NCBI GenBank assembly: GCA_013153865.1
Contig: JAADDR010000168.1
Location: forward strand, 1 to 39,201
DNA length: 39,201 nucleotides
Origin: Chlorobiota bacterium
GTDB lineage: Bacteria; Bacteroidota; Bacteroidia; Bacteroidales; JAADGE01
Direction: 5' to 3'
The notes beneath the pieces are model-generated. The model was not told where the DNA came from, did not search any database, and saw only the letters and a list, made by a program, of their open reading frames with translations. Shown here piece by piece: positions 6,186-37,379 of this stretch. Within the stretch, counting starts at the first letter, position 1. The number at the start of each line of letters is the position of its first letter. The position numbers and the translations under genes are program-made.

Positions 6186-7175
6186 ATGGCGGAAGCAAAT
6201 TTTATAGATTACGTAAAAATACATTGCAAATCGGGAAAAGGAGGCGCCGGGTCGGCACATTTTTACAGAGATAAGAGGACAGCCAAGGGTGGTCCGGACG
6301 GCGGCGACGGCGGCAGAGGAGGGCATGTTATTTTGCGGGGAAATCGCCATCGTTGGACTTTACTGCATTTAAAATATCGAAAACACGTAAAAGCCGAATC
6401 CGGAGAACCGGGCAGGGCAAATAATAAGTTCGGAGCCGACGGTAAAGACGTTATTTTGGAAGTTCCGCTAGGAACCGTTGCCAAAGATGCCGAAAGCGGC
6501 GATGTTTTATTTGAAATTACCGAACATGACGAAGAACGTATTTTGATGAGAGGCGGCAGAGGGGGTTTGGGAAATACTCATTTTAAATCATCAACAAATC
6601 AAACTCCGCGCTATGCACAACCCGGAGAGGAAGGAAACGAAGCATGGATAATTTTGGAATTGAAAGTTCTGGCTGACGTAGGGCTTGTAGGGTTTCCGAA
6701 TGCGGGTAAATCAACTTTATTGTCGGTGCTTTCGGCAGCTAAACCTAAAATTGCCGATTATGAATTTACTACTCTTACTCCTAATTTAGGGATGATAAAA
6801 TATCGAGAAGGGAAATCGTTTGTTATGGCTGACATACCGGGTATTATAGAGGGAGCATCGGAAGGGAAAGGTTTGGGATTGAGATTTTTGCGTCATATCG
6901 AAAGAAATGCGGTATTGTTGTTTATGATTCCTGCCGATTCGGATGATATAAAGAAAGAGTATTATGTTTTGCTTAACGAATTAAAAGCGTATAATCCGGA
7001 ATTGTTGGATAAAGAGCGGGTTTTGGCAATTACGAAGTCGGATATGATTGATGAAGAACTAAGAGAATACATGAAAAAAGATTTGCCTGATATTCCTTAT
7101 GTTTTTATTTCGTCTTTTACGCAAAGCGGTCTTACGGAGCTCAAAGATATGCTTTGGCATGCTTTAAATTCTTAA
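6186..7175 (+). CDS. obgE: Obg family GTPase
   Basis: Glycine-rich Obg fold ([15 protein letters not shown]), G1 [10 protein letters not shown]3 [20 protein letters not shown]. Likely start [12 protein letters not shown] at 6186 (or MFMAE at 6180), not the track ATG at 6156. Confidence 0.95.
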
Positions 7176-7185
7176 TTTTTTATTT

Positions 7186-8277
7186 TTATTTTTTGAATGC
7201 GAAAAATGACGGAATAATTCCTGTTCTGAAAGTATCGAGAATGGTTCCGTTTGACGAATATCTGTAAATATTGCCTCTTTGAATATAATCAACGGCATCC
7301 GAAACGTATATATCGGAGTTTGCAGGGTCTGTTCCTAAACCGTAAAATAATTTTCCGTCGGCGGGAATAAAACTATTGCCGGGTAATTTGCCGGAATTAA
7401 CGGACATTTTATATATTCCTTTGTAATCATCTTCGCCTGATGACCAAGACGAATTTATGAAAAATAACGTATCTCCGGAAGCATTAATTGTTAACCGGGA
7501 AGGGGAGGGTTCCAAAGACGGAAATTTAAATATTTTCTCGATACTGAAAGTTTCGGCATCTATTTTTGTGAGTGCGGCAGTATCTTGTCCTCCCGGAATA
7601 CCGTCAAAACCTCCGTCGGACAAAACCCATAATTTGTTGTTGCAATCGAGGCAAATGCTGTTTGGCTGTTTTGTAACGGTCAGGGAATCGGTCAAAATAT
7701 CGGTATCTGTATTTATTTTGTATATTTTATCGTTATACGACCAGCCGGTAACGTAAGCAAAGTTTTTGTATAAAGTGATTTGTTCGCTGCCTTTGCCTAC
7801 GGCAACAGACCCGGTTATTGTAAAATCGGAAGGGTTAATTACGGTAATGTTTGTGTTGTAAAGGTCGGTAACGTAAGCTTTTGTATCGGATATAATGCAC
7901 ATATACCGAGGAGAAGTCAGATTTGATATTGTTGCGATATGTTTAAATGTATTGGTATTTATAACCGAAATTTTTCCCGAATTGTTTATTATAAGAAAAG
8001 CAATGCTGTCTTTTATTGCAGCCGACATACATACGTCTCCGAGCGGAAAATCGTTGGCATTGTAGAAAATATCGTTAAGTATTTGTTTGTTTTCGGGGTC
8101 GTAAAATGAAAGACTCGCGTTTCCGTATGTATAATTTCCTTCGTTGCAGATAAATACGCCTTCGGATTTGTCGTATTCTTTAACCGGTTCGGGAGAGTCT
8201 TGTTTGCAAGAATAAATTGCCGACAAAAATAGTATTGCGCTTACTGTTTTTATAATCAACGTGTTTTTTTTGTTCAT
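7186..8277 (-). CDS. YncE-like beta-propeller surface lipoprotein, BtuG-like (putative cobalamin-binding)
   Basis: Signal peptide with lipobox (LFLSAIYSC); repeated propeller-type segments (KISVINTNTFKHIATI, TNITVINPSDFTITGSV); follows a BtuB-like receptor downstream of a cobalamin riboswitch. Confidence 0.8.
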   Translation of the reverse strand: MNKKNTLIIKTVSAILFLSAIYSCKQDSPEPVKEYDKSEGVFICNEGNYTYGNASLSFYDPENKQILNDIFYNANDFPLGDVCMSAAIKDSIAFLIINNSGKISVINTNTFKHIATISNLTSPRYMCIISDTKAYVTDLYNTNITVINPSDFTITGSVAVGKGSEQITLYKNFAYVTGWSYNDKIYKINTDTDILTDSLTVTKQPNSICLDCNNKLWVLSDGGFDGIPGGQDTAALTKIDAETFSIEKIFKFPSLEPSPSRLTINASGDTLFFINSSWSSGEDDYKGIYKMSVNSGKLPGNSFIPADGKLFYGLGTDPANSDIYVSDAVDYIQRGNIYRYSSNGTILDTFRTGIIPSFFAFKK

Positions 8278-8290
8278 AAAATTCGTTTTT

Positions 8291-10240
8291 TTAAATGGTA
8301 AATTTAACAGACAGAAAATATTGTCTTCCGGGCATTGCTCTCCAAAGAATTTCCTGATAGTTTTCGTTCAGCAGATTTTCGATTTTAAATTCAATATCCG
8401 TTGTTATTTTTTCTTTTTTAATTTTTTTGCCTGCCGACAAATTTTCCAGATAATATGCCGGCAAAGTATGTCTGTATTCTTCGTTTGACGAATCGGTGTA
8501 TCTTTTTCCGGTATAAATATGTGACCAGCGAAGATAATATCCTTTAAATTCGCAGTCTGCGGTTATGTTTGCTTTATGTAAAGGGATGTATGTAAGTTGT
8601 TTTCCCGCAGATAAATCGTATGTCGTTTTTTCGCTCTCGTCCGTTGTTTTGGTGTATGAGTAGTTTGCTCTTATTTGTGCGGTAAAGTTATTTGTTTTAT
8701 ATTTTTCCGACATGTATATTTCCGCACCTCTCGAGAATACTTTTCGTATGTTTTCCGCAGTCCAATATCCGTATTCTCCGGGTGTCCAAATAATCCAATC
8801 GTTTATGTATGATGCAAACAGCGATATGTTTATTTCGGTTTTAAAGATTTTGTTTCCGGAAGTATAAAAATTGAAATCCGTATCGCCGCTTATGCTTTTT
8901 TCGGTTTTTAAGTCCGGATTACCTCCGGGAATCCAATATAAATCGTTAAGCGAGGGATTACGAACATTGCGGCTTATGTTTGTTTTAATAATTAAAGGAA
9001 TATGTCCGGATAGGTCAAACTCCAGACCTGCCGAAGATATAAGAGGCAAAAAATCTTTATCGGTGCGGTTAATTCCGGTAAGTATATATCCGGCGGCGGT
9101 TTTATTAAATTGATAATGGGCGGACATAAGAATTTCCGCTGTTTTTCTGTTGCTTCCGTATCCTGTTTGCACAGTGCGGTCGAAATAATGTGCCGTATCA
9201 TATTTCAGAAGTAATTTGCCTTGCAATACCAGTTTGCTGCTTATTGTCCGGTTAATCTTATATTTTGCAAAAAATTGTTTTGTTTTACTTTCGGAATTTG
9301 TATGAAAAAATAAAGATGTTTCCGTTTTGTCTGCCAGTATGTATTTTATGTTTTCGGAAGTAAAACCCGCATTAATTTCTATTTGCGATTTTTTGCCGGA
9401 TATTTTACAGTTTGCGGAAATTCTTATGTCTTCGTCTTTTTGATTTTCGGTTCTTTCGTTACCGTCGAACGACATAATCGGAGGTATGTTACGGTCGATA
9501 TATTGCCACCATGCCGAAATATTTAATTGTCCGTTTTTTGAAAAAATAAAAGATGTTTCGTTTAAAACGGCATTTTTGTGATAGTCCGCATTTTTTTGTT
9601 TTGTGTAAGAGTTTGTTCCGTCTGCCGTGTTTAAGAAAGTAAAATCGTTGTCTGATTGTTCGTGAAAAAACTTCCATTCGCTGCGAAAAAAATCGTTGCC
9701 TGTTTTTATATCCGAAAATGTTTGATATGTATCGTTACTTCCGGCAGTTTGCATTATCGAGAACGAAAAATCTTTGTCGAAATCGGGTTCCGAGATAAGC
9801 ACTATGCTTCCGCCTAATGCTCCGCTTACCGATTTTAAAGAACTTCCGCCTTTGTCGAGTTCGGCTTTGTCGATAAAGAAAACAGGTATAAGAGAGATAT
9901 CCGCTTGTCCGAGCATGGGGTTGTTTAGAGAAATATCGTTCCATAAAATTTGTGTGTGCGATGCGCCTGTTCCTCTGAACGAAACAGTAGCGAGAGAACC
10001 TTGTCCGTATGATTTTACAAATACCGTTGTTTCGGAAGACAGTAATTCCGACAGCGAAGACATTATGTTCTCGGCTAATACGGCAGAATCGATTTCGTTT
10101 ATGTTGAATCCTTTGTTTTTTAATAAGCGAGGTTCCGTTATTTTTACTTCGCCGATGTTTATAATTGTGTCGTTGCGGTTTTGCGAAGTTGCAATGCCGA
10201 ATATTATAATGTATGATAATGTCAGTATCGCTTGTTTCAT
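8291..10240 (-). CDS. TonB-dependent receptor, BtuB-like (putative cobalamin transporter)
   Basis: Signal peptide; plug motifs SYGQGSLATVSFRGTGASHTQILWNDISLNNPMLGQADISLIP; C-terminal QYFLSVKFTI; riboswitch-controlled cluster. It starts inside the end of the upstream gene (4-nt overlap). Confidence 0.88.
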   Translation of the reverse strand: MKQAILTLSYIIIFGIATSQNRNDTIINIGEVKITEPRLLKNKGFNINEIDSAVLAENIMSSLSELLSSETTVFVKSYGQGSLATVSFRGTGASHTQILWNDISLNNPMLGQADISLIPVFFIDKAELDKGGSSLKSVSGALGGSIVLISEPDFDKDFSFSIMQTAGSNDTYQTFSDIKTGNDFFRSEWKFFHEQSDNDFTFLNTADGTNSYTKQKNADYHKNAVLNETSFIFSKNGQLNISAWWQYIDRNIPPIMSFDGNERTENQKDEDIRISANCKISGKKSQIEINAGFTSENIKYILADKTETSLFFHTNSESKTKQFFAKYKINRTISSKLVLQGKLLLKYDTAHYFDRTVQTGYGSNRKTAEILMSAHYQFNKTAAGYILTGINRTDKDFLPLISSAGLEFDLSGHIPLIIKTNISRNVRNPSLNDLYWIPGGNPDLKTEKSISGDTDFNFYTSGNKIFKTEINISLFASYINDWIIWTPGEYGYWTAENIRKVFSRGAEIYMSEKYKTNNFTAQIRANYSYTKTTDESEKTTYDLSAGKQLTYIPLHKANITADCEFKGYYLRWSHIYTGKRYTDSSNEEYRHTLPAYYLENLSAGKKIKKEKITTDIEFKIENLLNENYQEILWRAMPGRQYFLSVKFTI

Positions 10241-11646
10241 TTTGCGATGATAAGTTTTTCGGAAGTTACGGTTTCGTTTGTTTCCGTAATTATAAAGTAA
10301 ATACCTGAAGGCAGAGAAGATACGTCAATTTTGTTTCCGTTGTATTTTACTTTTTTTACGGTGCGACCGTAATTATCGGTTATGGTAATTTCGGCTTTAT
10401 TTATGTTTTTTATTTCGAAAAAATTATTTGCGGGTACGGGATATATTAAGATTTCGGAGCTTTCGGACTTGCCGATGCTTTCGGGTTCGTAAACTTCTCT
10501 TGTAATGCTCGTGCCGATATCCGGATTGTCGGTAAGATATGCCGTTATTGTTAAAGTTCCGGGTTGTGTCAGGTTGAGAATATTGTCTTCGTCGATATAT
10601 GCTCCGTCCAAATCGAGTTCGGTATTAATGTCATAAGACTGCAAACGTCCTTTGTTAAAAGCGAAAACTTCCAAAGTGTAAGATGTATCGGTATAAAGTT
10701 GCGGCGGTAAGTCTTTAATCACTACGGAAAGTTCTGTTCCGGATATGCTTTGGTCGGGCGAGATGTCAACGGCACCGCTTATTTCAGTAGATAATTCTCC
10801 AAGCATCATCATATCGGCATTTACGCCGCAATGTACTTTTACGAAATCTATTTCGTCTAAGTCCGCATAATTTCCGTTTTGGTCAACAGCCCATGATATA
10901 TCGAAAGAGTCTCCTCCCATACCTTCGGTATCGGCAGTATAGGGATTGTCCGGAACGTTTGAATTTATGTCTCCTCTGATTTTGTTGTCGGCATATCCGA
11001 AACTTCGGCAGTAAGATTTAATGTTGCCGGGATTTGAAGTATCTACTGAGGCAATTATTTTTGTTCCTTCGAGAGAGTATGCGTTTTGGTCTATATCGGG
11101 AAAATATTCTGCTGAAGGGTAGTAAGGTTGCGTGTGGTAGCTGTTTGCGTAAACGAATCCGCTGTTACCCGTATTGTCTGTCCATGCCACGTCGGCAGCT
11201 TCTTCCTGCTGAGGATTATTATATGTTATGCCGTAATTATGAATTGTGTTTGAAAAGAAGTAATCGCTTCCGGCAAGTTCGTACCATGTATCGTCCGGCA
11301 GTCCGTTGTTGTTTTCGTCTTTCATTACCGATACTATACCGGGTTCGGAGCTTTCGGCTGATGCAGGGTTTCCGAATACGGTAAAATCTATTCCGTAAGG
11401 ATTTTCAGGGTCGTTTTCTACAGGATTTTCAAATTTAAAGATAATATATCCTCCGAATGCTCCCAAACTTACGATACCGTTTGTTGTTCCGATGATTGAC
11501 AGTGCGGCGTCAGGGCTTCCGTAGGAGTCGGTATTTATAAATTGCCCCGGTGCGGGAGTATATTCGATAATTCCGGAAATATATTGAGCGTTTATTCGGC
11601 AGGCAAATATTACGATAAGCAATATCGTTAATGAAATGTATTTCAT
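10237..11646 (-). CDS. Cell-surface protein with T9SS type A C-terminal sorting domain, in cobalamin riboswitch operon
   Basis: Signal peptide; C-terminal IYPVPANNFFEIKNINKAEITITDNYGRTVKKVKYNGNKIDVSSLPSGIYFIITETNETVTSEKLIIAK is a typical T9SS CTD; first gene after the riboswitch. Confidence 0.85.
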   Translation of the reverse strand: MKYISLTILLIVIFACRINAQYISGIIEYTPAPGQFINTDSYGSPDAALSIIGTTNGIVSLGAFGGYIIFKFENPVENDPENPYGIDFTVFGNPASAESSEPGIVSVMKDENNNGLPDDTWYELAGSDYFFSNTIHNYGITYNNPQQEEAADVAWTDNTGNSGFVYANSYHTQPYYPSAEYFPDIDQNAYSLEGTKIIASVDTSNPGNIKSYCRSFGYADNKIRGDINSNVPDNPYTADTEGMGGDSFDISWAVDQNGNYADLDEIDFVKVHCGVNADMMMLGELSTEISGAVDISPDQSISGTELSVVIKDLPPQLYTDTSYTLEVFAFNKGRLQSYDINTELDLDGAYIDEDNILNLTQPGTLTITAYLTDNPDIGTSITREVYEPESIGKSESSEILIYPVPANNFFEIKNINKAEITITDNYGRTVKKVKYNGNKIDVSSLPSGIYFIITETNETVTSEKLIIAK

Positions 11647-11749
11647 TGTTTTCAGATTTTGGTAAAAATGACGGTACGTGATTTTACAGAAAACGGTCGG
11701 CAGGCAGGGATGTCGAATTTGCCTGTCTGTTCGCCGCAGACTGCAAAAC

Positions 11750-11925
11750 CGTAATCGACATCGGCAGGTCTTCTGACTTACTTCGTATTTTAAACACCTT
11801 CCCGCCTTATTGTTAAAGCAGTGGTATTTTGTTTAAAACATAGAAGCTTACAGCAGCGGGAACTGTTGCCGATTTTCACGGCATTCCCTTTTAACTCCGT
11901 AAGGAGACCGTTGTCTTTTGCAAAG
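11750..11925 (-). promoter_or_regulatory. Cobalamin (B12) riboswitch
   Basis: Reverse strand contains the conserved cobalamin element blocks: GGGAATGCCGTGAAAATCGGCAACAGTTCCCGCTGCTGTAAGC, a CCACTG block, GGCGGGAAGGTGTTTA, and a B12-box-like AGTCAGAAGACCTGCCGATG. Confidence 0.93.
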
Positions 11926-11961
11926 ATAATATTTTTTATATAAGAAAAATTTATATTAAGT

Positions 11962-12000
11962 AAAAAACCGGCAAATGTTTTATTTGTTTGCCGGTTTTTT
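11962..12000. terminator. Intrinsic terminator insulating the riboswitch operon from the upstream LRR gene
   Basis: Perfect 14-bp inverted repeat aaaaaaccggcaaa / tttgccggtttttt (11962-11975 / 11987-12000). Confidence 0.8.
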
Positions 12001-12020
12001 GCATTAATTTGCGAGTATGA

Positions 12021-12941
12021 TTATTTTTTTTTCGGTATAATTATTATTGTTGCGTCGGGATTTCTTTTTTGCAGTAAAGTTTCAAATTCTTTTACTTCGT
12101 CTTCCGATATGTTTATATTTTTAGCTCTGAGCATAATTAAATTCGGGAGTCCGATAAGATAATCCAAACTTTTGGCTTTTATTTGAGTGTCGGAGCAATC
12201 TATATCTTGTAAACTTTTGACAAGTTGCAAGGGTCTGAGAGAGCTTACTTTTGTTTTTGAGCAGTCTAATCTTTGCAAATTTTTCAGTTTTGACAGCGGG
12301 GTTAAGTCGTCTATGTTTGTTTCGCTGCAATTAAGCGAGGATAGTTCCGGCATATAGTTAAGTCCTTCGAGCGAGAATAATGAAATATTTTGCGAGACAT
12401 CTAAATCCGTAAGGTTTTTTAAGTCTTTTAATATTCTTAAATCGACTATTGTCGTATAGTGCACGTCTAAATTGCGAAGTTTGTCTAAGTATCTTAAAGG
12501 CACCAAACTTTTAACCATTGTATTGCCGCAATTTATTTTTTCGAGATTGGTTAATCCTGATAACGGTATAAGCGAGTTTATGTTGTCGTTGTCGGAGCAG
12601 TCAATTTCTTTAAGGTTAATTAATCCTTCAATTCCTTCCAGACTTTTAAGTCCGCTGTTTTTTGCTTTTATTATTTCGAGAAGTTGTAATGCTTCCGCCG
12701 GTTTGAGACTTTCTATCTGCTTATTGTTTTCAATATCGAGGAAAACCATTTTGCCTATTTCGGTAAGTTGTTCGTCGGTAGGCGTTACGTCTTTGCCTTT
12801 GAAGTGTTGTTTTTGTATTACTTTTTTCCATGCCGGCGACAGACTGTTCCACCATTCGCGATTGGTTGATTGGGCATTTGTTTCGCTTAATGCGGATATT
12901 AAAAATATTGCCGAAAAAAGGTATTTGTAAAATGTATTCAT
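12021..12941 (-). CDS. Secreted leucine-rich repeat protein
   Basis: N-terminal signal peptide ending ETNAQ; repeated LRR units (LTNLEKINCGNTMVKSLVPL, LKNLQRLDCSKTKVSSLRPL, VKSLQDIDCSDTQ). Confidence 0.85.
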   Translation of the reverse strand: MNTFYKYLFSAIFLISALSETNAQSTNREWWNSLSPAWKKVIQKQHFKGKDVTPTDEQLTEIGKMVFLDIENNKQIESLKPAEALQLLEIIKAKNSGLKSLEGIEGLINLKEIDCSDNDNINSLIPLSGLTNLEKINCGNTMVKSLVPLRYLDKLRNLDVHYTTIVDLRILKDLKNLTDLDVSQNISLFSLEGLNYMPELSSLNCSETNIDDLTPLSKLKNLQRLDCSKTKVSSLRPLQLVKSLQDIDCSDTQIKAKSLDYLIGLPNLIMLRAKNINISEDEVKEFETLLQKRNPDATIIIIPKKK

Positions 12942-12980
12942 GTGTTTTGATTTTTTAGGGTTAAAAAAAAGGTTTATAAA

Positions 12981-13934
12981 TTATCTGTATTCGAGTAATG
13001 CTTCCAATTTTCTTCCGTATCCGTCGTCAAACGAAATAACGGACGGGTAAAAATCGCTTTGCAAATCGCGTGATTCTATTCTGAATGTTACAACGGGTGC
13101 GGAGTTATCTTTACTTGACCATATTTCAAATTCCAGTATGTCTCTGTTATAAATGCCGTCGAACCAGTATAAATTGTGTGTCAGGGAAAAAGTTACGGGA
13201 AAAGATTCTGTGTATTCCGTATGTCTGCTTTCTTTTTCTTCGTGTCCGGCATACCAAACAACCACAAAAACATCTTCTCCTAAGTATGTGTCAGGCAGCC
13301 AAACGGTAACTTCGTCTATTAAAATATCGTCGGGCGGAGGTTTTATTGTTATTTGTTTTGAGAATTTAGAAGTGTCTCCGTTGCAAATTGCATTAAGAAG
13401 GCATGTGTATGTGCCTTGATTTTCGTAAATATGCGAGGGGTTTTTTTCTTCGGAAGTTTCTCCGTCGCCGAATTCCCAAAGGAATGATGTTGCGTATTTT
13501 GAGTAGTTTTGAAATTCGATGAAGGCGGGCATAAACAGGGAGTCTGTTTTTGATGCATAGTCCCAATCGGAGAATACTACCGTAGAATCACCGGTAAGGT
13601 AAAGCGTTTTTGATTTGGAGTCTGATGCTTTGTTTTGCACGACTGATAAGTTTACTTTGTAAATGCCCGGTTTTTCGTATATGTGAACCGGTTTAAATTC
13701 CGATGATGTTTCTCCGTCGCCGAAATCCCATGTATATTTTAAGTCTTTTACTCCGTGTTCCGCTTCGGCATAAAAATATACAACATAAGGTGCGCTGCAA
13801 TTTTCTACACTGTCAATAATATCGAATATTTCTGCATTGCCTTTGCAGCTTGTCAGTGAAGTTACGGTAAAGACAAATAATATTAATCCGATAATAAATA
13901 TTACGAAATGTTTACCGGGTTTGTAAGTTTTCAT
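12981..13934 (-). CDS. PKD-domain lipoprotein
   Basis: Lipobox-like LTSC; two PKD units (YTWDFGDGETSSEFKPVHIYEKPGIYKVNLSV and FLWEFGDGETSEEKNPSHIYENQGTYTCLLNA). Confidence 0.85.
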   Translation of the reverse strand: MKTYKPGKHFVIFIIGLILFVFTVTSLTSCKGNAEIFDIIDSVENCSAPYVVYFYAEAEHGVKDLKYTWDFGDGETSSEFKPVHIYEKPGIYKVNLSVVQNKASDSKSKTLYLTGDSTVVFSDWDYASKTDSLFMPAFIEFQNYSKYATSFLWEFGDGETSEEKNPSHIYENQGTYTCLLNAICNGDTSKFSKQITIKPPPDDILIDEVTVWLPDTYLGEDVFVVVWYAGHEEKESRHTEYTESFPVTFSLTHNLYWFDGIYNRDILEFEIWSSKDNSAPVVTFRIESRDLQSDFYPSVISFDDGYGRKLEALLEYR

Positions 13935-21982: not shown

Positions 21983-24301
21983 TTAATTTACGAATAAAAG
22001 TTTTGTAACATAAGTTTGAGTGCCGTCGGAGTTTGAACAGAAAACAAGATATACTCCGGTATTTACTTTTCTGCCGTCAAATGTTTTACCGTCCCATATT
22101 GCTTGTCCGCCGAGGGCTGTTGTTTCGTAAACGATGTTTCCGGATATATCGGTTATTTTTACGTTTACGTCTCGAGCAAGTCCGGTTACGGTAATTTTTC
22201 CTTTATATCCGGGTCTTACGGGATTCGGGAATACATATACGTTTTTAAAAATATTATCCGCATCGGTAGCTTCGGCTCTGAAAGACATTATTCCTATGTC
22301 GGTAAGGAAAAAGACTTCTCCGGTTTTGCCGTTTACGGTAATGTCGTTAATATTATCGGATATTAACGGGCTGTTATATTTGTCGAAATGATAAATTTCT
22401 TCTTTTCCGTTGTCGGAAACCAGAAAGACACCCGAATTAGCCGTTGCTATCCATTTTCTGTTTGCTCCGTCAGTTTCTATGTCATTTATTATGTCAGTAC
22501 TTAAAAGATATTGTTCGGTGGTATCTTTTCCGTAAGATGTAAGTTGTATTCTTTCCGCAAAAAAATTATCATCGAAAACTTCGTCAGGATTGTAATATAC
22601 TACTATGCCGTTTCCCGTACCCATCCAAATGTTGTTGTTCAAATCTTCCGTTAAAGCTGTTATTTCCGTAGAAATTTGTTCTCCTTCGCTTGTTTGCGGA
22701 TATATTATTTTATGGCGGTCGTCGTCGGGGTTGAGCGGTGTATTGTTGTCGTCGAATACCAGCATTCCTTTTCCTAAACCGAGTTCGACCCATTTTATAT
22801 TACCGGTTGTGGTATAAATATCTTCGACGTAATCGTTTGTGATACTTCCTCCGAAGTTGTAACTTTTCCATTGTCCGTCTTCTGTTTTTACCGAAACCGG
22901 TTCTCCCACGCCTTGGTTTGTTACCCAAAGGTTGTTGTTGAGGTCGAAAGTTACTCCGTATATTCTGATATATCCGTAGTCGTATCCGGGTATTGCTTCC
23001 AATGTACTGTTAAGGTTATTGTATGCATTTGTCCAAGTATTGTCGTTAAATTCGAATATTCCGTATCCCCATGTTCCGAAAAACAGGTTGTTTTTATTTT
23101 TCGGGTTTACCGCAACAGAGAAGAAGTTACGTGCCGTATCCGGAGATATTCTGTATGTTTTCCATTCGTTGTTTTCGAATATGTTGTAAACGGGAGTGTA
23201 CCATCCGGTAGCTTTTATGTTTCCGTCGGTTGTTATTACTTTGTTGTCGAAAGAAACGGCTTTTGCCGTATAATTGTTAAACGGTCCGTTAGGATAAACA
23301 TAGTTTGTTTGTTTGTTGTCGTTTTCGTAAACCAGACCGAAACTGTAATCGGCAATTATGAGGTTGCCGTTTTTGTCGAGTAATGCGTCGTTCATGTATA
23401 AATCCGGCCGGTATCCGGAAAAGTTGTATGTGTCGAATGTTCTTGTAAGATTTAAGGATGTATCGAATATTTTTATTTCATGTCGCATTGTAAGTATTAT
23501 GTTTTTTTCGGAAGAACGTATTGAGCAAAGTTCTTCGATGTCATTGCCGAAGAGTTCCCATGCGCCGTCTTTTTTTATGTAAAGAGTATCGTTTCCGGTC
23601 GCGGGATTTATTTGGTTTGTTATTATGTATTTGTCGAAAGTTTCTACCATATTGTATTTACTGTCGTTATCGGGTATATCCGGAACAAGGTTCCAATTTC
23701 TGTAATCCGCAAGATTGGAGTTTGTGAAATCGGCAAATAATAAACCTTCGTCGGTTGCCGCATATATGTATGTTTCGTCGAAAGCTATATCGTTTACTTT
23801 AACGTAAGATGCGTTGTTGCCGATAAACCAGGTATCTTTAAATTCCAAGTTTTCCATATCCAGAAGAACGATACCGAATCCGCAGGCAAGATAAGCGGTA
23901 TTTCCGGCAAAAGTAATGTTGTATATTGTTTTGTCAGTGCTTATTTGCTTTCGTTTTATTTCCGAGAAGTTGTATATTGTATTGTTTTTAAGTATGTCGA
24001 TATTTGAATTTTTGTATGCGATTAAAAGAGCTTTTTGATTACTGTTCCATGCTGTTGTTTGTATTTCGGCATCGGAATATCCTTGTATTTTAGTTAATTT
24101 TTCGATTGTTTTTTCGTTTTTGTCGAACGACCACACGGCAATTTCTCCGGCAATATATATTTTGTCTTCTGCATCGGCAACATAAAGAGCTTTTTTATAG
24201 GAAAAATGATCTCGCCATGTGCCTACCGGAATTTGAGCCGGTATTTTAAGTGATACTTGGGTTATAATCAGTAACAGTATTGCTTTTTTTATCGGGTTCA
24301 T
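21983..24301 (-). CDS. porZ: PorZ-like T9SS component (beta-propeller protein)
   Basis: PorZ-like opening after the signal peptide (PVGTWRDHFSYKKALYVADAEDKIYIAGEIAVWSFDK), two-component-regulator-type propeller repeats (DLNNNLWVTNQGVGEP, DLNNNIWMGTGNGIVVY), C-terminal NVYVFPNPVRPGYKGKITVTGL sorting-like domain. Likely start MNPIKKAILLL at 24301; the track ATG is 24325. Confidence 0.8.
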   Translation of the reverse strand: MNPIKKAILLLIITQVSLKIPAQIPVGTWRDHFSYKKALYVADAEDKIYIAGEIAVWSFDKNEKTIEKLTKIQGYSDAEIQTTAWNSNQKALLIAYKNSNIDILKNNTIYNFSEIKRKQISTDKTIYNITFAGNTAYLACGFGIVLLDMENLEFKDTWFIGNNASYVKVNDIAFDETYIYAATDEGLLFADFTNSNLADYRNWNLVPDIPDNDSKYNMVETFDKYIITNQINPATGNDTLYIKKDGAWELFGNDIEELCSIRSSEKNIILTMRHEIKIFDTSLNLTRTFDTYNFSGYRPDLYMNDALLDKNGNLIIADYSFGLVYENDNKQTNYVYPNGPFNNYTAKAVSFDNKVITTDGNIKATGWYTPVYNIFENNEWKTYRISPDTARNFFSVAVNPKNKNNLFFGTWGYGIFEFNDNTWTNAYNNLNSTLEAIPGYDYGYIRIYGVTFDLNNNLWVTNQGVGEPVSVKTEDGQWKSYNFGGSITNDYVEDIYTTTGNIKWVELGLGKGMLVFDDNNTPLNPDDDRHKIIYPQTSEGEQISTEITALTEDLNNNIWMGTGNGIVVYYNPDEVFDDNFFAERIQLTSYGKDTTEQYLLSTDIINDIETDGANRKWIATANSGVFLVSDNGKEEIYHFDKYNSPLISDNINDITVNGKTGEVFFLTDIGIMSFRAEATDADNIFKNVYVFPNPVRPGYKGKITVTGLARDVNVKITDISGNIVYETTALGGQAIWDGKTFDGRKVNTGVYLVFCSNSDGTQTYVTKLLFVN

Positions 24302-24340
24302 AATGTTTATATTCCGAGATGTCAATGTTTTAACGAAAAT

Positions 24341-35822: not shown

Positions 35823-37379
35823 ATGACTGAAGTTAAAGTTTTATGGGTTGACGACGAGATAGACCTTCTGAAAATTCAAATCCTTTATCTCGAAGAAAAA
35901 GGACATAAAGTATTTACCGCAAATAACGGTTACGATGCCGTTGAAATGATAAAAAACAACAGCTACGATATAATTTTTTTAGATGAAAACATGCCCGGAA
36001 TTTCCGGATTGGATGTTCTTACAAACATAAAAAAAATAAAACCTTCCGTTCCGGTAGTAATGGTTACAAAAAACGAAGAAGAAGACATTATGGACGATGC
36101 CGTGGGAGCTAAAATAGACGATTATCTCATAAAACCCGTAAACCCCAAACAAATAATTCTTGCAATTAAAAAAAACGTAGAAAACAAACAACTTATAAGC
36201 GAAAAAACAACTTTAAGATACAGAGCCGGATTTTCCGATTTGAGTATGAAAATAAATGATGCCTCAACATGCAACGATTGGAAAGAACTTTATAAAGACC
36301 TCGTATATTGGGAACTCGAACTTGACAAAACCGAAGACGATGCAATGGACGATGTATTGATACAACAAAAAAAAGATGCCGATATAGAGTTTTCGAAATT
36401 TATTAAAAAAAATTATATAGAATGGTTTGAAGAAGACAACGAAAAACGCCCCGAGATGCCTTTCGATTTTTTCAGAAAAGAAGTTATTCCGCTTTTAGAC
36501 CGAAAAGAAAAAGTATGTGTAATAGTAATAGATAACTTGCGTTACGACCAATGGAAAGTTCTGCAACCCGTTATTTCACCCTATCTCGAAACCGTAAAAG
36601 AAGAACTTTGGTTCTCGATACTTCCTACCGCTACTCAATATGCGCGAAATGCCTTTTTTGCCGGACTTATGCCTCTCGATATAGCAAAACGCTACCCCGA
36701 ATATTGGCTTAACGACGACGAAGAAGGCGGGAAAAACGCTTACGAAAAAGAATTACTCGCCGAACTTTTTCAAAGATACAGACGAAAAGTTAAATTCTCA
36801 TACGATAAAGTTTTAAACAACAAAACAGGCGAGAAATTAAACGAAAGATTTGCCGATATTATGCAAAACCGATTATCGGTAATAGTATATAATTTTGTGG
36901 ATATTTTATCGCATGCACGCACCGATACCAAGATGATAAGAGAACTTGCCGACGGCGAATCGGCATATCGCGATTTAACGTTAACATGGTTTGAACATTC
37001 GCCTCTTTTAGAAACCGTAAAACTCCTGTCACGAGAAAATATTACCGTATTTATAACTACCGACCACGGTTCGGTTAATGTCGATAATCCGGTAAAAGTG
37101 GTGGGAGACCGTAATACAACCACAAACTTGAGGTATAAACAAGGCAGAAATTTAGCATATAACCCTAAAGAAGTCTTCGAAATTACAAAACCGGAGCAAG
37201 CAGGTTTGCCGGTTTCAAACATCAGTTCCACTTATATATTCGCATATAACTTTGATTTTTTTGCATATCCCAATAATTACAATCATTACGTAAAATACTA
37301 CAAAAACACTTTCCAGCACGGAGGAATTTCACTTGAAGAAATGATAATTCCTTACATCATGCTTAAACCCAAAAAATAA
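35823..37379 (+). CDS. porX: PorX-like response regulator with PglZ domain (T9SS regulation)
   Basis: N-terminal receiver VLWVDDEIDLLKIQILYLEEKGHKV...IIFLDENMPGISGLDVL...KIDDYLIKPVNP; C-terminal PglZ phosphatase-like VCVIVIDNLRYDQWK, ILPTATQYARNAFFAGLMP, FITTDHGSVNVDNPVKV. Confidence 0.93.
   Translation: MTEVKVLWVDDEIDLLKIQILYLEEKGHKVFTANNGYDAVEMIKNNSYDIIFLDENMPGISGLDVLTNIKKIKPSVPVVMVTKNEEEDIMDDAVGAKIDDYLIKPVNPKQIILAIKKNVENKQLISEKTTLRYRAGFSDLSMKINDASTCNDWKELYKDLVYWELELDKTEDDAMDDVLIQQKKDADIEFSKFIKKNYIEWFEEDNEKRPEMPFDFFRKEVIPLLDRKEKVCVIVIDNLRYDQWKVLQPVISPYLETVKEELWFSILPTATQYARNAFFAGLMPLDIAKRYPEYWLNDDEEGGKNAYEKELLAELFQRYRRKVKFSYDKVLNNKTGEKLNERFADIMQNRLSVIVYNFVDILSHARTDTKMIRELADGESAYRDLTLTWFEHSPLLETVKLLSRENITVFITTDHGSVNVDNPVKVVGDRNTTTNLRYKQGRNLAYNPKEVFEITKPEQAGLPVSNISSTYIFAYNFDFFAYPNNYNHYVKYYKNTFQHGGISLEEMIIPYIMLKPKK

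Follow-up and report, generated by a model that had tools for sequence, protein, structure and literature searches.

What kind of surface protein is produced first when a bacterium switches on a cobalamin (vitamin B12) transport operon, and by what route does that protein reach the cell surface? This question is raised by the DNA analysed here, a window of 39,201 nucleotides (nt) from Chlorobiota bacterium contig JAADDR010000168.1 (GCA_013153865.1), in whose numbering the operon positions are given. A preliminary description had proposed that a cobalamin riboswitch precedes three closely spaced minus-strand genes, encoding a surface protein sorted by the type IX secretion system (T9SS), a BtuB-like TonB-dependent receptor and a propeller lipoprotein, and that the first of these might be an additional, uncharacterised cobalamin-binding surface factor. 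All of these elements are present. Homology, pocket residues and genetic linkage favour a binding factor, whereas the word "uncharacterised" has to be dropped, because the domain is BtuH, which was published in 2022 (PMC8941943). What is new for BtuH is the T9SS export route, found in a conserved operon and combined with a mirrored order of domains; searches of the literature for either BtuH or a vitamin B12 cargo in connection with type IX secretion found no paper.

The first gene encodes a protein of 469 amino acids (aa) with a signal peptide (residues 1-20), a BtuH domain (22-294), an Ig-like spacer (about 300-386) and a sorting domain (about 400-467). A search of solved structures matched residues 22-294 to the H-domain of BtuG1 (8blw_B, E 2e-46) and to BtuH2 with bound B12 (7biz_A, E 4.5e-44), and the protein belongs to the known B12-binding domain family BtuH. 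The C-terminal sorting domain is of T9SS type A (401-467), scoring 48.7 bits with Pfam PF18962 (cut-off 27) and 45.3 bits with TIGR04183 (cut-off 23), as the preliminary description had anticipated; Pfam and NCBIfam gave no match in the protein outside this domain. Structure prediction of the product alone yielded a confident AlphaFold2 model in three parts (BtuH, Ig-like and sorting domain), built on 27 sequences and with a mean predicted local distance difference test (pLDDT) score of 89.4. Its top Foldseek matches were BtuG1 (8blw_B) and BtuH2 (7biz) at E values of about 1e-22 (1.7e-21 for BtuH2), and the next match stood at 2e-7. In Bacteroides thetaiotaomicron (B. theta), BtuH2 is a direct B12 binder required for efficient uptake; mutants lacking it grow more slowly when B12 is scarce and are less fit in mice (PMC8941943). 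Homology to B12-bound structures suggests that the 469-aa protein may bind B12 as well. The BtuH domain sits N-terminally and close relatives have no conserved lipobox, so the protein falls outside the B. theta-type BtuH lipoprotein subtype.

A one-genome-per-species scan returned 508 relatives, the best 79 loci of which were analysed; because these loci match the window domain most closely, they over-represent T9SS types, and the counts given here do not estimate population frequencies. When the class was sampled evenly, the BtuH domain was detected (E 1e-6) in 9 of 395 genomes. Anchor classes were assigned with our own sorting-domain profile and a lipobox pattern: 39 loci had a sorting domain only, 32 a lipobox only, one (L034) possibly both, and seven had neither or were truncated. 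The T9SS-type variant occurs in many environmental relatives, and its linkage to B12 genes is conserved. In the 40 T9SS-class loci (the 39 plus the ambiguous one), a same-strand B12 box lies upstream in 35, btuB lies directly 3' of btuH in 29, and btuG follows too in 26; these 26 keep the order btuH-btuB-btuG, with the B12 box upstream in most. Over all loci, 77 B12 boxes were found on the gene strand and none on the opposite strand (0.4 expected from shuffles); of 14 relatives checked against Rfam, 13 were confirmed to have a cobalamin riboswitch. The btuH gene is present in 8 of the 21 genomes of the window's own family, and the other seven carriers (six further species in the genus plus one elsewhere in the family) all possess the riboswitch motif, a T9SS-type btuH and btuB. 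The preliminary description had regarded homologs lying mostly outside B12 loci as evidence that would overturn its proposal; dozens of genomes show the opposite. Moreover, a BtuG lipobox was recognised by pattern in 23 of the 26 T9SS loci, and two of the remaining three look like start-site misses, indicating that a lipid anchor is retained by the BtuB lid but not by BtuH.

Contact residues reported for BtuH2 (PMC8941943) were mapped onto the relatives, including 41 T9SS-class domains with that of the window among them. Conservation in this class was complete for Q333 and N399 (41/41 each) and high for H476 (40/41), L578 (39/41) and W577 (35/41), and positions 401, 510 and 511 were variable in every class. 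The window protein keeps Q333, N399, H476 and L578.

The two anchor types also differ in architecture. In the lipoprotein type, the BtuH domain is C-terminal, with medians of 117 residues before it and 3 after, whereas in the T9SS type it usually follows the signal peptide directly (medians of 25 before and 506 after). From these positions, the simplest forms of both types have an Ig or PKD spacer on the anchor side. In the domain tree, a single well-supported group (99/97) holds the lipoprotein types, along with a few T9SS types nested inside it, and the anchor labels require 11 changes compared with 32 when shuffled, suggesting that anchor exchanges have been few rather than frequent. Three relatives stand apart by their names. 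L094 (Sporosarcina) and L099 (named Beijerinckiaceae) both fall outside Bacteroidota by name. L094 has the domain in a 1933-aa protein, and L099 has a lipoprotein BtuH preceded by a BtuG-like gene and may be a misbinned contig. L027 (named Chlorobi) is nearly identical to Bacteroidales L028, matches the window's genus relative L113 and is probably misnamed.

Strong homology to solved B. theta complexes identifies the second and third genes as encoding BtuB and BtuG. The second product matches BtuB-type TonB-dependent receptors (8bmx_C, E 5.7e-80; 8p98_A, E 3.9e-76) and has a Plug domain (49 bits), and it scored 87.6 with the E. coli-type model TIGR01779, under the cut-off of 599.7. The third matches BtuG-type propellers (DUF5074, 90.3 bits with a cut-off of 27.2; 8p97_B, E 1.8e-91) and carries a lipobox-like AIYSC at its N-terminus, in keeping with the propeller lipoprotein described earlier.

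The genome encodes a T9SS, judged from its genes. Besides PorZ and PorX (Table), it encodes PorU (1248 bits, cut-off 420) with an adjoining PorP-family gene, SprA as one 2530-aa frame, and 56 sorting-domain matches. The PorZ and PorX genes share the window with their likely cargo. The assembly is 92.5% complete, so gene absences carry little weight. A methylmalonyl-CoA mutase is encoded and CobS was not detected in this incomplete assembly, which is consistent with a need to scavenge cobamides. The genome also has part of an IcmF-type mutase. As noted previously for btuFCD, neither btuC nor btuF is in the window; the sole FecCD (BtuC-like) permease of the genome is on another contig. The second and only other cobalamin riboswitch of the genome (L009, contig C42:10255-13456, at 1501-1702 on the minus strand) precedes an apparently solitary gene (L009 422-1375, minus strand) for a 317-aa DUF4465 (BtuJ-like) protein, which scores 125.7 bits for DUF4465 (cut-off 25) and 58.4 bits for a T9SS sorting domain. 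DUF4465 proteins bind B12, and 229 of 824 carry the T9SS sorting domain annotation IPR026444 (PMC12751083). Thus, by prediction, both riboswitch-controlled accessory binders of this genome are T9SS cargo.

The layout of the operon is given in the Table. The genes btuH and btuB overlap by 4 nt (ATGA, 10237-10240), as already described; the spacing between btuB and btuG is 13 nt (8278-8290) and not the 50 nt claimed before. The operon is bounded on its 5' side by a terminator-like hairpin, a palindrome with T runs on both strands, and on the other side by a convergent gene ending at 7175. The candidate promoter element at the start of the leader fits TAnnTTTG, which we take to be the consensus of the Bacteroidota-type -7 element.

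Table. Features of the cobamide operon and T9SS genes elsewhere in the window (window coordinates).
Feature	Position	Strand	Evidence or remark
Cobalamin riboswitch aptamer RF00174	11746..11927	-	113.9 bits vs gathering score 31.5, E 5.2e-28, full model 1-189
Candidate Bacteroidota-type -7 promoter element TATCTTTG (TAnnTTTG)	11921..11928	-	start of riboswitch leader; read from sequence
btuH, T9SS-type, 469 aa	10237..11646	-	BtuH-domain homology and Por_Secre_tail
btuB, TonB-dependent cobamide transporter	8291..10240	-	Plug domain 49 bits; 8bmx_C, 8p98_A
btuG, surface lipoprotein forming the BtuB lid; DUF5074 propeller with seven blades	7186..8277	-	DUF5074, 8p97_B, lipobox
Terminator-like hairpin of upstream gene	11960..12002	-	18-pair stem and T tail; consensus scan (listed on + strand)
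porZ, T9SS anionic-LPS delivery protein, outside operon	21983..24325	-	NF052228, 596.3 bits (cut-off 260)
porX, T9SS response regulator, outside operon	35823..37379	+	NF052313, 787.8 bits (cut-off 300)

We observed the gene content, the identity of the domain, a mostly kept pocket, an operon conserved in relatives, and T9SS genes in the genome. On this basis, the locus is very probably a cobamide-scavenging operon, in which a T9SS-exported BtuH-domain protein captures cobamides and passes them to BtuG/BtuB. At low cellular cobamide, the riboswitch would permit expression; this OFF direction is suggested by B. theta reporters, in which riboswitch-controlled promoters of this sort are shut by B12 (PMC12751083). 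Judging from domains and gene content, the BtuH-domain protein would cross the inner membrane via Sec and the outer membrane via the T9SS, after which PorU would cleave the sorting domain and, with PorZ, probably link the protein to anionic lipopolysaccharide (A-LPS). The BtuH domain would thus be left outermost on its Ig-like spacer, where, by homology, it could capture cobamides. The cobamide would then be handed to the BtuG lid, BtuB would be loaded, and import would be driven by TonB. BtuH2 of B. theta forms no stable complex with BtuBG, and transfer there is regarded as a transient event (PMC8941943, PMC10404256).

Several points weigh against this scavenging model. Both the binding and the localisation of T9SS-type BtuH proteins are predictions. 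The leader RNA folds mildly better than shuffles (z -2.0), and no expression platform was resolved for the riboswitch in the leader by this comparison or by a hairpin scan. Although BtuB, BtuG and a BtuC-like permease are present, a search of the genome (92.5% complete) yielded no Peripla_BP_2 (BtuF-type) protein; the gene may have fallen into an assembly gap, or a different periplasmic carrier may be used. In the pocket, the window protein has Asn/Ile at the positions of Y510/W511, which vary widely in the family (T/W in BtuG1), and Met at that of W577, which is Trp in almost all of its class and in the genus relatives with a readable motif. Trp577 of BtuH2 touches corrin side chains (PMC8941943), and it is mainly its replacement by Met that calls for caution over the window protein's own affinity. 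Taken to its extreme, the loss of this Trp could mean that the window copy has drifted, so that it binds a different corrinoid or no ligand at all. We regard such drift as improbable: the four other conserved contacts are retained, the frame is intact and the gene stands first in a riboswitch operon, and most lipoprotein-type relatives also lack Trp577 (kept in 8 of 34) and are still in B12 loci.

A somewhat stronger competitor, although still an unlikely one, is that the protein is released once its sorting domain has been removed and acts as a soluble or vesicle-borne, hemophore-like cobamide trap that returns B12 to BtuBG. Some T9SS cargo is indeed released. In B. theta, BtuH2 is partly found in the supernatant and BtuJ-bearing vesicles deliver B12 (PMC8941943, PMC12751083). 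However, a type A sorting domain in a genome with PorU and PorZ fits A-LPS attachment. The signal peptide also has a cysteine at a lipobox-like place (Cys16 in IFAC-R), as does that of L034, which would allow a true lipoprotein with an unused sorting domain. This is very improbable, and we rejected it: the cysteine is missing from the close relatives L024-L028, whose signal peptides finish with an AQ resembling a signal peptidase I site, the score of the sorting domain is well over its cut-off, and a T9SS is encoded. Finally, the lack of any Pfam or NCBIfam match beyond the sorting domain might suggest an unrelated surface protein that lies behind a B12 riboswitch by chance. With homology to B12-bound structures and an operon that recurs in dozens of genomes, we give this almost no credence, and the family survey refutes it.

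The scavenging model can be set beside known systems. BtuH2 (BT_1956) and BtuH1 of B. theta (PMC8941943; 7biz) share with the window protein the B12-binding domain, a riboswitch locus with btuB and btuG, and a predicted surface location. BtuH2, a lipoprotein, has PKD/Ig domains at its N-terminus and the BtuH domain at its C-terminus, and BtuH1 has no extra domain, whereas the window protein has a Sec signal, then BtuH, then Ig, and the T9SS sorting domain last. BtuG1 (BT_1490; 8blw) has the BtuH domain nearest to the window's by E value; there it is fused to the propeller in one lipoprotein, whereas in the window the two are separate proteins with different predicted export routes. BtuB and BtuG of the window are close homologs, in the same order, of those in the BtuB2G2 and BtuB3G3 complexes (PMC10404256; 8bmx, 8p97), but the window has a single locus with no adjoining btuFCD. 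DUF4465/BtuJ proteins (PMC12751083, PMC13398666) are likewise B12-binding surface proteins in riboswitch loci, with a jelly roll fold that sets them apart from BtuH; given the sorting-domain annotations among them, a T9SS route for a B12 binder is already on record there. B12 capture in Bacteroidota has so far been described via surface lipoproteins of gut species. A T9SS-carried BtuH beside a lipoprotein BtuG shows that the tether is exchangeable, and this contrast suggests that a lipid anchor is needed by the BtuB lid only. The operon also points to where B12 capture may be sought in T9SS-bearing environmental lineages.

Fusions of BtuH with other B12-binding folds in relatives are also new, and they are testable candidates for multi-site cobamide traps. 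A DUF4465-like domain is fused ahead of BtuH in the T9SS-type L032, L033 and L036 (Pfam-confirmed in L036), and a separate T9SS-tagged DUF4465-like gene lies upstream in L029, L030, L031 and L038. In fourteen T9SS-type relatives, each about 810 aa long, BtuH is followed by an additional domain (L040:4153-4785; also L035, L037, L041, L042, L044-L048 and L050-L053), which is absent from the window protein. Its model (pLDDT 85.7) gave 14 first fold matches to transcobalamin, haptocorrin, intrinsic factor and one related bacterial protein, the best being 5np4 (E 1.9e-3, probability 1.00). A profile of the domain from 808-aa relatives had no sequence match in the PDB; with Pfam, the members themselves hit DUF4430 only, below threshold and in 6 of 14, in agreement with the fold match. 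Because the E values are modest and no solved structure matches by sequence, the likeness is a strong lead rather than proof, and the domain is a possible second B12 site. Its putative counterparts are the beta-domain of transcobalamin/intrinsic factor and bacterial SLBB proteins (PMC1796856). Transcobalamin-like domains were predicted earlier in bacterial B12 scavenging, where the known SLBB proteins pair with CbiO/CbiQ-like transporters and not with BtuB/BtuG (PMC1796856).

We therefore put forward tentatively, with doubt slightly outweighing confidence, that environmental T9SS Bacteroidota may display A-LPS-anchored modular cobamide traps, with BtuH and a DUF4465 or transcobalamin-beta-like domain in one polypeptide, feeding a BtuB-BtuG transporter. 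If so, the transcobalamin-like domain would supply a second B12 site, acting independently or in cooperation with the first, and the protein would be a bacterial surface analogue of animal B12 carriers.

Still larger BtuH proteins, of about 1400-1800 aa, occur in L059-L064. They combine Ig domains with a stretch resembling a propeller, and their match to the T9SS sorting domain is weak to moderate. In the 1400-aa L059 protein, this propeller-like part had no sequence match to BtuG, so no BtuG identity is claimed for it. The hosts are Coprobacter, Bacteroides nordii, Paraprevotella and Mariniphaga, and a B12 box, btuB and btuG lie upstream.

Just upstream of the window operon and on the same strand (12021-13934, minus) are genes for an exported protein with leucine-rich repeats and for a lipoprotein-like product with a PKD domain; the terminator-like hairpin separates both genes from the operon.

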